Part shown: piece after piece, positions 47,350 through 53,076 of the stretch
Position numbering within the stretch: the stretch's first letter is position 1
Layout of the letters: each line of letters begins with the position of its first letter
DNA from: Haloferax litoreum
Lineage (GTDB): Archaea; Halobacteriota; Halobacteria; Halobacteriales; Haloferacaceae
Direction: 5' to 3'
Assembly: GCF_009674605.1 (NCBI RefSeq)
Contig: NZ_WKJO01000001.1
Coordinates: 186,001-250,000, forward strand
Length of the DNA stretch: 64,000 nucleotides
Program-made: the position numbers and the translations under genes
Notes under the pieces: model-generated
Databases searched by the model: none
The model's input: only the letters and a program-made list of their open reading frames with translations
What the model was told of the DNA's origin: nothing

Positions 47350-48030
47350 TTAGGCGAGTGTGTTGACCGCGTCCCAGAGGAACAGCACGCCGAATCCACC
47401 GAGGACGACGGCGCTGAGTGCCGCGACGACGGGGGCGAACGACTCGACTCGCTGTTCGGCGGCGACGAGGGCCGCCGGGAACCCGGTCACCCAGATGGCG
47501 ATACCGCCGAAGAAGCCGAGGATGAGCGCCGGACTCCCCGTCTGGACGATGAGGAGGTTCGAGAGCGACGCGCCGAGGTAAGGCGTGTGCGAGAGAACGT
47601 CGACAGTCCCGGTTTCGAGTAAGCCGACGCCGATGGTGAGCCAAAAGAGAATCTGGTACGGATTCGTCAACGCGAGGACGAACGCCTTCGTGAACCCGGC
47701 GCTGTCGGTGTCGGGGTCGGCGGCCTCACGGAACGTCGTCTGCATCTCCTTGGCAGCACCGTATGCGAAGTACAGCATGAGGATGCCGCCAGCACCGACC
47801 ATCACGGCGCGAATCGTCGGGAACTGCTCGACGAAGGCGACGAGGCCGAGGGCGGCGAGGACGAAGAACAACGCGTCGGCACTCATCGCGCCGAGACCAG
47901 CGCGGGCACCCGACGACCACCCGCGGACGACGCTCTCTTCGGCGATGACGGCGTTCATCGGTCCCGGCGGGGCGGCGAGGGCGAGGCCGAAGACCAACCC
48001 AGCACCGAGCGACGGGAGGACGGTAGACAT
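47350..48030 (-). CDS. LysE/RhtB-family amino acid exporter
   Basis: A 226-residue membrane protein with six helices. Seen: the family N-terminus AAPPGPMNAVIAEESVVRG (about 18-36), helices at about 50-75 (SADALFFVLAALGLVAFVEQF), TNPYQILFWLTIGVGLLE (about 116-133) and the C-terminal GFFGGIAIWVTGFPAALV. Family members export lysine, threonine or other amino acids. The ATG at 48030 is chosen, the upstream in-frame sequence being Arg/Ser rich and not family-like. Downstream of the GDT1-like gene by 62 bases, same strand. Confidence 0.88.
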   Translation of the reverse strand: MSTVLPSLGAGLVFGLALAAPPGPMNAVIAEESVVRGWSSGARAGLGAMSADALFFVLAALGLVAFVEQFPTIRAVMVGAGGILMLYFAYGAAKEMQTTFREAADPDTDSAGFTKAFVLALTNPYQILFWLTIGVGLLETGTVDVLSHTPYLGASLSNLLIVQTGSPALILGFFGGIAIWVTGFPAALVAAEQRVESFAPVVAALSAVVLGGFGVLFLWDAVNTLA

Positions 48031-48092
48031 CACCGCTTCTTGGCTCGAATCCGTGAAAAATGACGCGGATGCGGTGACTGCTGACCGACCGG

Positions 48093-48788
48093 TCAGAGAA
48101 GCGAGAGAACGACGTCGGACGCGGCCCCGACGAACGTCTCCCACGCGGAGAACCCGGTGAAGATGGCGATGGTCGTATCGAGGGCGAAGAATCCGAAGAG
48201 CGACGCGGCACCGAGGTACGCCTTGCGGGTGTCGAACCGGTCCGAGAAGCGATGGAAGAAGTACGCGTTGGCGATACTCACCGGAATGATGGCGAGCATC
48301 TCACCGGCCCAGATTGCGGGGTGCGCGCCGTACTGGACGGCGAGGCCGATGGTCACGAGTTGGGTCTTGTCACCGAACTCGCCAGCGGCCATCATGGCGA
48401 AGATAGGGAAAAAGCCGCCGAAGCCGTGACTCGACACCTCTCGGCCGAACACGGTCGGCGTCGCGTCGAATCCGGTCAGTCCGCCGTCTGTCGCTGCCCC
48501 GGACCCGTGCTTCGATGGAGTCGAACGGTACAGAAGCACCGCGAACAGCGCGAACAACACCGCGGTGAAGGCGTCCAGCGCCACCGGTGGCAACGCGTTC
48601 TTCAACGCCTGCCCGAAGGCGATTTCGAGGGCGGTCCAGATGGCGAACGCGGACCCTGCCGCGGCGACGACGACTTTCGGGTCGTAGCGCGTCGAGAGGC
48701 CGGCGATGATGAACTGAACTTTCTCGCCGGGCAACACCGCGAGTTGTGCGACGAGTGCGACGACGAGAATCTCGGTCCACCCGGTCAT
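48093..48788 (-). CDS. GDT1/UPF0016-family (TMEM165-like) membrane cation transporter
   Basis: A 231-residue membrane protein made of two related halves with six or more helices. Seen: the family E-x-G-D-[KR]-[ST] motif in the second half, EFGDKT (137-142). The first half has only LPGEKVQ (19-25) at the matching place, so one of the two acidic motifs is degenerate. The family exports or moves Mn2+/Ca2+ in bacteria, yeast and plants. Overlaps the DtxR regulator by 4 bases (ATGA), which strongly suggests manganese or iron control. Confidence 0.88.
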   Translation of the reverse strand: MTGWTEILVVALVAQLAVLPGEKVQFIIAGLSTRYDPKVVVAAAGSAFAIWTALEIAFGQALKNALPPVALDAFTAVLFALFAVLLYRSTPSKHGSGAATDGGLTGFDATPTVFGREVSSHGFGGFFPIFAMMAAGEFGDKTQLVTIGLAVQYGAHPAIWAGEMLAIIPVSIANAYFFHRFSDRFDTRKAYLGAASLFGFFALDTTIAIFTGFSAWETFVGAASDVVLSLL

Positions 48789-49483
48789 GCAGTCGAAACA
48801 CCCTCGTCTTCACACGACTCGTCTGGTTCGCGGACGCGAATCGTCTGCGCGACGGACTCGGGAAGACTCTGTTCTCGCTCCGAGTTCGCGACGCGGACCG
48901 TGACCATGCCGAACGGTGCAACGTCGATTATCTCGATGGTGGTCCCGGGGACGACACCCGCCTCGGAGAGGTATTCCAACTCTTCTGGGTCGCGGTCACT
49001 GACTCGGCAGACGACGACAACGTCACCCACGACGTGGTCAGAGAGTGTCGAGAGACCAGACGAGGCTGGCGGGGTGAGGTCGGCGCTCGGAATCGGGTCG
49101 CCGTGTGGGTCGACTTCCGGGTCACCCAGTGCGGCGGCGACTCGGCGCTCGAACTCTTCGCTGATGTGGTGTTCGAGCGCGTCTGCCTCCTCGTGGACCT
49201 CGCTCCACGAGTAGTCGAGGTGTTCGGTGAGGTACGCCTCCAAGAGGCGGTGGTGACGGAGGACTTCGAGCGCGACTGTCTCGCCTTCTTCGGTGAGTTC
49301 GACGCCCTTGTACTTCTCGCGTTCGACCAGCCCGCGGTCTTCGAGTTTCCCGACCATGCTCGTCACCGTCGGGGGCGTCTTTCCCAGATACTCCGCGATA
49401 GCAGACGTGGAGACGGGCGGCCCGTGTTCCATCTGAAGAGAGTAGATTGCCTTGAGGTAGTCTTCCATCACGTCGCTCAACAT
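48785..49483 (-). CDS. DtxR/MntR/SirR-family metal-dependent regulator with FeoA-like domain
   Basis: A 232-residue regulator. Seen: winged helix (DVMEDYLKAIYSLQMEHG; PPTVTSMVGKLEDRGLVEREKYKGVELTEEG in pieces), dimerization helices with the metal-binding pair Glu104-His105 in ADALEHHI, a linker, then an SH3-type FeoA domain (about 150-215, VVPGTTIEIIDVAPFGMVTVRV). It keeps the canonical metal ligands, unlike the protein at 6959. Palindrome TTAGAC-GT-GTCTAA lies 9-22 bases before its ATG, fitting autoregulation. Operon with the GDT1-like transporter. Confidence 0.92.
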   Translation of the reverse strand: MLSDVMEDYLKAIYSLQMEHGPPVSTSAIAEYLGKTPPTVTSMVGKLEDRGLVEREKYKGVELTEEGETVALEVLRHHRLLEAYLTEHLDYSWSEVHEEADALEHHISEEFERRVAAALGDPEVDPHGDPIPSADLTPPASSGLSTLSDHVVGDVVVVCRVSDRDPEELEYLSEAGVVPGTTIEIIDVAPFGMVTVRVANSEREQSLPESVAQTIRVREPDESCEDEGVSTA

Positions 49484-49491
49484 GGGTTGAA

Positions 49492-49515
49492 TTAGACGTG
49501 TCTAAAGCAAATATC
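49492..49515 (-). promoter_or_regulatory. Promoter and DtxR-type operator of the dtxR-gdt1 operon
   Basis: A perfect palindrome TTAGAC-GT-GTCTAA (49492-49505) sits between a TATA-like AATATTTG (minus strand, near 49508-49515) and the ATG at 49483. DtxR-type operators are often TTAG...CTAA palindromes (for example the TTAGGTTAGSCTAACCTAA-type box). The location between TATA and start fits repression by the operon's own regulator when metal is bound. Confidence 0.7.
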
Positions 49516-49574: not shown

Positions 49575-50744
49575 TCAGATACCCTGTCCCATCAGGTGAC
49601 TTCGGAGGATGTCGGCGTTCTTCGTTCCCGACTCGGTGTTGACGACGACGACGCTGTCGTCTTCGTCGAACTCGTCGGACTGGTCCCACGCGGCGGCGAG
49701 GGCGACGCCACCGGCGGCACCGACTTCGACGCCGGCGGTCTGCGCGGCTTTGACCGCCGATTCGAGGGCGTCGTCGTCGCCGACAGTGACCGCGACACCG
49801 TCGGATTCCTCGATTGCACGGAGCGCGAGTGACCCGCCTGCCGGGTCTGGAATCTCCAGTTCGCCGACGATAGTGTCGGGGTGGTTCCACGCCTCGGTGT
49901 CGTCGTTTCCGACCTCCCACGCGGTGGCGATGGGTGAGCACCCGACCGACTGCGCGGCCACGAGTCGGGGCACGTCGTCGACGAGGCCGAGGTCTGACAG
50001 GTCGCGGAAGCCCTTGTAGACGCCGTAGACGAGTTCACCGGTCGCCACGGGGACGACGACCCAGTCGGGGACGGACCAGTCGAGACGCTCGGCAATCTCG
50101 TAGGCGATGGTCTTCGCGCCGTCGTGTCGATACGGATTGTCGAACTCTTGGAGCGTGTACCAGTCGCTCTTGAGTTTCTCGTGGAGTGCCGAGAGCGCGG
50201 CGGGGTAGCGCCCGCCGACGACTTTCATCTGGCCGCCGTGGACGTTCACCATCGCCTTGTTCGGGAACGGCGTCCGCGAGGGGACGAACCCGTACGAGCG
50301 CACGTCGACGAGGCCCGCGTAGGATGCCGCGGACTGGGCTCCGTTTCCGGGCGAGGCGTGAGCGACGACTTCCGCACCTGCTTCTCGTGCCGCCGTCGCA
50401 GCGAGCGAGAACCCACGGTCGAGGAACGTCCCGGTCGGGTTGCGTCCTTCGTCCTTGATGAGCAACGACCCCACACCCGCTTCGTCGCCGAGTGCCGACG
50501 CCTCGACGAGCGGTGTCGCACCTTCGTTCGCCGTCACGGGGTCGTCGAAGGGGAGGAGTTCGCGGTAGCGCCACATCGTGTCGAACGGACGTTCGGCGAG
50601 CGTCTCCGCGTCCCACTCGACACTGTCGAGGTCGTACGTCGGGTCGAGCGGTTCGTCCGCGTCGCTCGGCCCGATCACGTCGGCGTCGTACTCGTCACCG
50701 GTCTCCGTACACACCAGCCCAGAGAACGTGTCGGAAGTCTGCAT
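49575..50744 (-). CDS. Threonine-synthase-like protein lacking the PLP-binding lysine
   Basis: A 389-residue protein of PLP fold-type II. Seen: NEGATPLVEA (about 73-82), KDEGRNPTGTFLDRG (97-111), SPGNGAQSAASYAG (about 134-147), VVPVATGELVYG (the phosphate loop region) and SGTKNAD near the end. In active enzymes the third block reads NPTGSFKDRG with the Schiff-base lysine; here the codon is CTC, giving Leu108. The rest of the fold looks intact. It is therefore probably not a normal PLP enzyme. It stands alone, 91 bases upstream of the DtxR operon on the same strand. Confidence 0.85.
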   Translation of the reverse strand: MQTSDTFSGLVCTETGDEYDADVIGPSDADEPLDPTYDLDSVEWDAETLAERPFDTMWRYRELLPFDDPVTANEGATPLVEASALGDEAGVGSLLIKDEGRNPTGTFLDRGFSLAATAAREAGAEVVAHASPGNGAQSAASYAGLVDVRSYGFVPSRTPFPNKAMVNVHGGQMKVVGGRYPAALSALHEKLKSDWYTLQEFDNPYRHDGAKTIAYEIAERLDWSVPDWVVVPVATGELVYGVYKGFRDLSDLGLVDDVPRLVAAQSVGCSPIATAWEVGNDDTEAWNHPDTIVGELEIPDPAGGSLALRAIEESDGVAVTVGDDDALESAVKAAQTAGVEVGAAGGVALAAAWDQSDEFDEDDSVVVVNTESGTKNADILRSHLMGQGI

Positions 50745-50838: not shown

Positions 50839-52119
50839 ATGGACGATAGCCACATCGTGGTCGTCGGTGCGGGTCTCGCTGGCCTCGTCACCGCGCGACA
50901 CCTCGCCGCCGATGGGTCCGACGTGACCGTCATCGAACGACGGGACGACGTCGGCGGACGAGTTCGAACGAGGACGACCGACGGGTTCACACTCGACCGA
51001 GGGTTTCAGGTGCTTTTCACCGGCTATCCCACAGTTCGCCGCGAACTGGACCTCTCGGCGCTCGACCTGCGCGAGTTCACGCCCGGCGCGACCATCTGCC
51101 GGCCGAGTCGCCGGTCCGTCCTCTCGGACCCCCTCCGCGACATCGGCAGTCTGTTCGACTCGCTCCGGAACCCCGAGCTGACGACGAGCGACAAACTTCG
51201 GACACTGGCGCTCAGACAGGACGTGGGGACACGCGACGAAGCCGAGATATTCGCCTCACCAGACCAGAGCATCCGGTCGTACCTCCGCGACTGGGGCTTT
51301 TCGGAAGACTACATTGACCACTTCGTCGCTCCGTTCTACGGCGGCATCACCCTCGACCGCTCGCTGTCGTCCTCGAAGCGCGTCTTCGAGTACACGTTCA
51401 AGATGCTCTCTGCGGGGAGTACCACCGTCCCGAAAGACGGGATTCAGGCGATACCCGAGCAACTCGCCGACGTCGCCCGCGACGAGGGCGCGACGATTCG
51501 TCTCGGCGAACGGGTCGAGTCGATTCAGAGCGACGAGAACGGCGCAGTCGTCACGACGGGGCGCGAGTCCGTCGAGGCGGACGCCGTCGTCGTCGCAACC
51601 GACCCGAAAGAAGCACGGCGCTTGACGGATGTCGAGTCGATTCCGACCGACGCCCACGGATGTGTGACGCAATACTACACGCTTCCGGCGGGAAGCGGCC
51701 TCGACGCGGGGAAGCGAATCATGCTCAACGCCGCGAATCCGGACCCCAATACGATTGCCCCGCTCTCGACTGTCGCACCCGAGTACGCACCGGCGGGGAA
51801 GGAACTCCTGAGTGCGACGTTCCTCGGGGCCGCCGCCCGAGACGAGTCAGAAGAAGTCCTCTTCGAGAAGACGTTGCGAACGCTCGAAGCGTGGTATCCC
51901 GAGCGCTACTTCACCGACCTCGAACTGCTCCACACCGACTACATCTCCTTCGCCCAGTTCGCCCAGCCACCGGGTATCCACGACTCGCTCCCGGGGCACC
52001 GCGATGCACCGGGTCGAACCTATCTCGCCGGCGACTACACGACGTGGTCGTCGATTCAGGGGGCGATGCGGAGTGGTCGAGAGGCCGCCGACGCCGTTCG
52101 AAAAGACCTCTCGAACTAG
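50839..52119 (+). CDS. FAD-dependent amine-oxidase-type oxidoreductase
   Basis: A 426-residue flavoprotein like phytoene desaturase and protoporphyrinogen oxidase. Seen: dinucleotide motif IVVVGAGLAGLVTARHLA (about 5-22), then ERRDDVGGRVRTRTTDGF and RGFQVLFTGYP, and the C-terminal FAD block GRTYLAGDYTTWSSIQGAMRSG (given as pieces). The start ATG 50839 follows 27 bases of leader in frame with an upstream GTG. Substrate unknown; could be a carotenoid or prenyl compound. Convergent with a CPBP protease gene. Confidence 0.88.
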   Translation: MDDSHIVVVGAGLAGLVTARHLAADGSDVTVIERRDDVGGRVRTRTTDGFTLDRGFQVLFTGYPTVRRELDLSALDLREFTPGATICRPSRRSVLSDPLRDIGSLFDSLRNPELTTSDKLRTLALRQDVGTRDEAEIFASPDQSIRSYLRDWGFSEDYIDHFVAPFYGGITLDRSLSSSKRVFEYTFKMLSAGSTTVPKDGIQAIPEQLADVARDEGATIRLGERVESIQSDENGAVVTTGRESVEADAVVVATDPKEARRLTDVESIPTDAHGCVTQYYTLPAGSGLDAGKRIMLNAANPDPNTIAPLSTVAPEYAPAGKELLSATFLGAAARDESEEVLFEKTLRTLEAWYPERYFTDLELLHTDYISFAQFAQPPGIHDSLPGHRDAPGRTYLAGDYTTWSSIQGAMRSGREAADAVRKDLSN

Positions 52120-52158: not shown

Positions 52159-53076
52159 TCAGTCGTTCGAGTGCGTGACGCCACCGGCCGTATCTACCTC
52201 TGACGCCGGCCGAGCGCCCTCGAACGAGAGACCACCCGTCGGCAGTGGGTTCGACGAGAGACGCTCCGCACCGTAGCGGTAGACGAGAATCCCGGCGAGT
52301 ACCCACGCCGCCGCGGCGAGACTGGCCTCCGAGGGCAGGATGCCACCGCCGGTGACGCCCGCCGCAAGGTAGACCGAGATGCCGTTCCACGTCGTGTGGA
52401 ACGCGATGGGGACGAGGACGCGACCACCGGACTCGTTGTACAACCACGTCGTGATGACGCTGATTGCGATGACTCCGAGCAGGTAGAACGCGAACGACGT
52501 ACCGGCCTGCGAACTCCCCGGCATGGCGAACAGCGGGATGTGCCACGCCGCCCAGACGACACCGATGACGAGCGAGGCACGGAACGCGCCGAGTCGTCGC
52601 TGGAGGACGGGGAGGCCGTAGCCGCGCCATCCGGGTTCTTCGAGGCCGCCTCGGATGAACGACGAGAGCAGTAACGCCCCGAGCAACCCGGGCGGTCCGA
52701 GGGCTGCGGCGTCGAACGACCATCCGGTTGCGACGGTGAGTGCGAGTGTCGCACCGAACAGGACGACGGGCACAGCGATGGCGGCGACCCAGACGAGGGG
52801 CGACGTTCGGACGCTCACCAACCGCCGACCCCACGACCGGATATCACCGGTGACCGCGGCGAGAACGATTGCTGCGAGAAACGGACCGAACCCGCCCACG
52901 AGGACGAGCAACGAGACGTACGTCGGCGGGTCGCCACCCCTGACGAGGAGCATCGCCGGAATCCACCAGACCCACGTGAGGAGGTACGTCAGCACCAGGA
53001 AACTGACGAATCGATGCGTTCGTATCCACCCTATGAGCGAGGACATCACAGGTAGAGATACTACTGCAGTGAGCAT
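52159..53076 (-). CDS. CPBP-family intramembrane metalloprotease
   Basis: A 305-residue membrane protein. Seen: about eight hydrophobic helices and the family motifs LEEPGWRGYG (Glu146-Glu147), AAWHIPLF and AFHTTWNG with the metal histidines. CPBP (Abi) proteins are glutamic/metal intramembrane proteases or related, acting in protein secretion, prenylation or self-immunity. The C-terminal about 25 residues are hydrophilic. Start ATG 53076; an in-frame ATG 10 codons later is possible. Confidence 0.86.
   Translation of the reverse strand: MLTAVVSLPVMSSLIGWIRTHRFVSFLVLTYLLTWVWWIPAMLLVRGGDPPTYVSLLVLVGGFGPFLAAIVLAAVTGDIRSWGRRLVSVRTSPLVWVAAIAVPVVLFGATLALTVATGWSFDAAALGPPGLLGALLLSSFIRGGLEEPGWRGYGLPVLQRRLGAFRASLVIGVVWAAWHIPLFAMPGSSQAGTSFAFYLLGVIAISVITTWLYNESGGRVLVPIAFHTTWNGISVYLAAGVTGGGILPSEASLAAAAWVLAGILVYRYGAERLSSNPLPTGGLSFEGARPASEVDTAGGVTHSND

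Follow-up and report, generated by a model that had tools for sequence, protein, structure and literature searches.

Three kinds of protein built on the fold of PLP-dependent enzymes are the closest known counterparts of the protein examined here. TSB-like, a tryptophan-synthase-beta pseudoenzyme of eudicots, is a fold type II PLP enzyme that has become a conserved non-catalytic protein; according to its description, two key residues are altered and the partner, TSA, is known (PMC12727527). Threonine synthase itself (ThrC; TIGR00260; PDB 2zsj, 2d1f, 1uim) and the family NF006050 (PRK08197), likewise named threonine synthase, are the enzymes with which the comparison has to be made. In the 64,000-nucleotide stretch of Haloferax litoreum DNA analysed here (the window), one gene encodes a protein that shares the NPTG and NPYR motifs with ThrC but lacks both its Schiff-base lysine and its GNAGN loop. 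We consider it probable that this protein is a PALP-fold (fold type II) pseudoenzyme, in which a second, tail-linked function of a PLP-enzyme ancestor is now the conserved one. The gene and the two altered sites are as follows.

49575 to 50744, minus strand: gene for a putative PLP-less threonine-synthase-like pseudoenzyme of 389 amino acids (open reading frame, Pfam, orthologue alignment)
50421 to 50423, minus strand: codon 108, CTC (Leu; GAG on the plus strand), in place of the Schiff-base lysine (sequence, comparison within Haloferax)
50031 to 50045, minus strand: degraded PLP-phosphate loop ATGEL, residues 234 to 238 (alignment; GGGVG in lysine-bearing orthologues, GNAGN in threonine synthases)

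All 389 codons are open from ATG to stop. The product belongs to the PALP fold family, matching the PF00291 profile at 217.6 bits against a cut-off of 35, and phmmer aligns it with solved threonine synthases along most of its length (E ≈ 1e-37). It nevertheless falls below the cut-off of the thrC model TIGR00260 (143 against 167.1 bits) and below that of its best family match, PRK08197 (292.1 against 303 bits), from which it also differs in lacking the lysine and the GGG loop. Haloarchaeal orthologues that bear the lysine pass the PRK08197 cut-off, one of them scoring 381.6 bits and a lysine-bearing second copy 368.8 bits. That same orthologue reaches 148.9 bits with the thrC model, under its cut-off, so the name threonine synthase given to PRK08197 is unsupported by that model. 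The genome holds nine PALP genes, one of which, L018 (G000:C1:1068034), carries NPTGSFKDRG and the GNAGN loop and, judged by these motifs, is likely the true threonine synthase. The gene in the window is thus not the sole threonine-synthase candidate of its genome. In Haloferax volcanii, insertion into thrC3 (HVO_2969) yields an auxotroph that glycine, serine and threonine together rescue (PMC4300041). The H. volcanii orthologue of the gene studied here should be HVO_0818, since by synteny the flanks correspond to HVO_0817 (PMC4300041) and to HVO_0819, which is SirR (PMC11349517). A search of the open-licence literature turned up no paper on HVO_0818 and none that treats the gene as a pseudoenzyme.

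A fold type II PLP enzyme is expected to carry a Schiff-base lysine after its PTGS/T motif and a glycine-rich PLP-phosphate loop, and the protein has neither. Its motif reads NPTGTFLDRG, with leucine as residue 108, and its loop is ATGEL (VVVPVATGELVYG, against PVGNAGN in threonine synthases and PTGGGVGLVG in lysine-bearing orthologues). The CTC codon and the open frame had been reported correctly in the first-pass annotation; its further statement that the Asn/Gly motif and the phosphate loop were both intact holds for the former (ASPGNGAQSAASY) but fails for the latter. Across 138 aligned family sequences, a sample that is not random and in which some genes are counted twice, lysine and GGG loop occur together in 40, the lysine alone in two, the loop alone in none and neither in 96. 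By this alignment, the PLP lysine and the phosphate loop were lost together, and the two exceptions with lysine only (L070 and L098) both nest within lysine-less groups in the trees. Other positions decay less: Asn134 and Thr370, which by alignment we take to be PLP contacts of the threonine synthase fold, go from 96% in lysine-bearing to 71% in lysine-less copies and from 100% to about 70%, respectively. We infer that PLP is absent from the protein; it could in principle still bind non-covalently. The role of a PLP sensor, proposed earlier, is unlikely given that the degradation extends to the phosphate loop.

Among the lysine-less copies, residue 108 may be L, T, V, A, H, Y, R, I, E, F, D, G, Q or S, and this variability argues for a site released from catalysis and against a new catalytic residue. 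No replacement catalytic lysine appears, and Lys97 is itself missing from some copies. Four sequences (L164, L177, L178 and L179) lack Lys108 together with this otherwise near-invariant Lys97, reading IADEG, VVDEG or IVDEG.

The change at codon 108 extends well beyond this strain. Eleven of 12 Haloferax sequences have CTC and that of H. marinum has CAC (His), so the lysine is missing throughout the genus; sequencing error and strain-specific mutation are thereby ruled out, and with them the weak point that the first-pass annotation had itself named, that this strain alone might have lost the residue. Every single-locus copy examined in the window's family lacks the lysine too. Pairwise dN/dS values within Haloferax lie between 0.02 and 0.17, so purifying selection acts on these copies even though the lysine is gone. 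At E ≤ 1e-60, 288 of 292 Halobacteria genomes yield a match; G002, G217 and G285 instead hold a diverged lysine-less copy with the family motifs, and G161 is the only one of the 292 in which no copy was seen. In genome G038, a lysine-less copy (L143; G038:C1:544400-555600) is split over two frames, through either genuine decay or an assembly error, and an intact, lysine-bearing, tail-less paralogue (L136) is also present. With that copy broken and none in G161, the gene does not qualify as strictly essential in all haloarchaea. Overall, the 389-residue protein has lost its catalytic residues while the remainder is conserved, a pattern shared with pseudoenzymes of the TSB-like kind.

The family history was reconstructed in trees made without the lysine and loop columns, and in a second tree from which the tail was removed as well. 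Without these trait columns, the lysine state needs five to six changes, and an AU test rejects a single lysine-less clade (p = 0.003). Lysine-less sequences form a large clade that includes the window's family; they recur as L111 and L122 beside the lysine-bearing L099, and again as L081, L063 and L072 within an otherwise lysine-bearing group, both placements with strong support. The state changes are read as losses because the outgroups carry the lysine; on these trees, loss occurred on more than one occasion.

Other parts of the protein have been retained whether or not the lysine is present, most prominently two segments.

50235 to 50258, minus strand: block KAMVNVHG, residues 163 to 170, within PSRxxFxxKAMxNVHG (alignment; kept in lysine-bearing and lysine-less orthologues)
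49590 to 49604, minus strand: C-terminal tail RSHLM, residues 381 to 385 (alignment; in nearly all orthologues, not in lysine-bearing second copies)

Near-invariant in both kinds of orthologue are PSRxxFxxKAMxNVHG (residues 155 to 170), C269, D290, E297 and RSHLM, most of which are different in the likely threonine synthase of the same genome. The tail is present in 91 of 96 lysine-less sequences and in all 22 lysine-bearing sequences of the tail-bearing orthologue set; none of the lysine-bearing second copies has it, and these copies, found in some genomes, keep the lysine, the GGG loop and an N-terminal CxxC. Such a pattern would be expected if an ancestral bifunctional protein had split its two functions. 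An AlphaFold model made from 17 close orthologues is of low confidence (mean pLDDT 57.6) and too weak for the cleft, the tail and the conserved patches to be placed in three dimensions.

The gene most likely performs a non-catalytic job and is mis-annotated. We propose that in the haloarchaeal ancestor the protein was a PLP enzyme whose tail and cleft mouth also served a second, non-catalytic function, that this second function became the indispensable one, and that catalysis decayed repeatedly once it was unneeded or a tail-less paralogue had taken it over. The present protein would use its tail and the former cleft to bind a partner protein or a small ligand, acting as a regulatory or scaffold subunit. 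That the tail-borne function outlived catalysis throughout the class, the anchors being discarded several times independently while a separate tail-less paralogue in some genomes keeps the catalytic residues, is a claim to which we give even chances. By analogy, eudicot TSB-like would be the closest working precedent, although the haloarchaeal family differs from it in having lost the PLP lysine and the loop, and in having done so more than once. The pseudoenzyme reading offered in the first-pass annotation is strengthened by the absence of both PLP anchors, by purifying selection, by conservation across the class and by recurrent loss.

The surroundings of the gene contain the following elements.

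48785 to 49483, minus strand: DtxR-family regulator (SirR) with a FeoA domain (Pfam; PMC11349517 for HVO_0819)
48093 to 48788, minus strand: GDT1/UPF0016 divalent cation-proton antiporter (Pfam PF01169)
47350 to 48144, minus strand: LysE-type translocator, true start probably internal (Pfam PF01810)
50839 to 52119, plus strand: FAD amine-oxidase/phytoene-dehydrogenase-like gene, divergent (Pfam PF01593; synteny)
49492 to 49505, no strand assigned: palindrome TTAGACGTGTCTAA, a putative SirR-type operator between the pseudoenzyme gene and sirR (sequence search)

The pseudoenzyme gene is followed by those for SirR, GDT1 and LysE and by an iron-containing-alcohol-dehydrogenase-family gene (Pfam), which is probably glycerol-1-phosphate dehydrogenase. 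The divergent amine-oxidase neighbor occurs with both lysine-bearing and lysine-less forms, which supports their positional orthology. Beyond it lies a CAAX-protease-like membrane gene (Rce1-like; 52159 to 53076, minus strand). SirR and GDT1 are frequent neighbors within the window's family and rarer elsewhere. In Haloferax the palindrome (TTAGAC-NN-GTCTAA) precedes the ATG of sirR by 22 bp, and in other genera it lies near sirR; it has a single copy in the genome, recurs near DtxR genes in more than 20 related loci, and is likely the SirR autoregulatory operator. Its position downstream of the pseudoenzyme gene argues that sirR, GDT1 and LysE form their own self-regulated unit. Control of the pseudoenzyme gene by this operator was rejected, the operator being on the wrong side of the gene. 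A role in metal response, an option raised in the first-pass annotation, is weakly supported: the SirR and GDT1 neighbors are indeed conserved in many genera, but the operator precedes sirR instead of the gene itself.

Two of the alternatives are specific forms of the pseudoenzyme explanation, and we regard each as possible, at roughly one chance in four. The protein might be an inactive subunit exerting allosteric control over a PALP paralogue, be it the true threonine synthase or some Ser/Thr lyase. As a rule PALP enzymes are dimeric, nine PALP genes are at hand in the genome, and some genomes have tail-less lysine-bearing paralogues of the same family. A fold type II pseudoenzyme that activates its partner is also on record in TSB-like, which controls TSA (PMC12727527). 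The Haloferax genomes searched, however, contain no lysine-bearing family member, so any partner would come from among distant paralogues (identity of about 34% at most), and the gene is not co-localized with thrC. An equally tentative proposal is a PLP-less small-molecule sensor of amino-acid or phospho-amino-acid levels, perhaps signaling to LysE. It would account for the near-invariance (98%) of Arg206 and Lys163, which are part of the substrate pocket and the first of which corresponds in the alignment to the arginine of the threonine synthase NPxR motif, and for the LysE gene that adjoins or lies near many orthologues. Yet the pocket reads EFDNPYR or TFVTPYR where threonine synthases have SINPYR or similar, many lineages have lost the adjacency to LysE, which itself lies behind the sirR operator.

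The remaining explanations depart further from the preferred one. An accessory protein of metal homeostasis acting with SirR and GDT1 is improbable: the two genes do follow co-directionally for most members of the window's family and in some further families, but the SirR-type operator is downstream of the gene, the N-terminal C15 and C29 are missing from the Haloferax copies, and many lysine-bearing orthologues have different neighbors and often sit elsewhere. We similarly doubt that the protein is a working enzyme with lysine-independent chemistry. DEGRNPTG, DRG and R206, which line the active site, are conserved, whereas position 108 is highly variable, no lysine takes its place and the phosphate loop varies too. 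An ordinary decaying pseudogene, which the missing active-site residues and the frame-broken L143 might suggest, is very improbable and already contradicted by selection and conservation: the frame is open in nearly all genomes, dN/dS is low, the non-catalytic motifs are invariant and almost every genome has the gene.

In almost every haloarchaeon the gene is likely to receive the name threonine synthase by homology, and since the lysine is missing in a large part of the class, such annotations and the metabolic models built on them would be wrong. That both PLP anchors disappeared repeatedly while the remainder was kept amounts to a natural experiment separating the catalytic from the non-catalytic function of a single protein. 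Among the tail-less lysine-bearing second copies, three (L133, L134 and L136) adjoin GcvPA, GcvPB and GcvH-like glycine-cleavage genes, as named by eye from the sequences, a hint that they serve Ser/Thr/Gly catabolism and not threonine synthesis. Other haloarchaea have a second copy from a further lysine-bearing subfamily without the tail (L138, L139, L140 and L141), with the motif NPTNTFKDRG and ≈37% identity, and a large FAD-linked oxidase-like gene adjoins three of these four.
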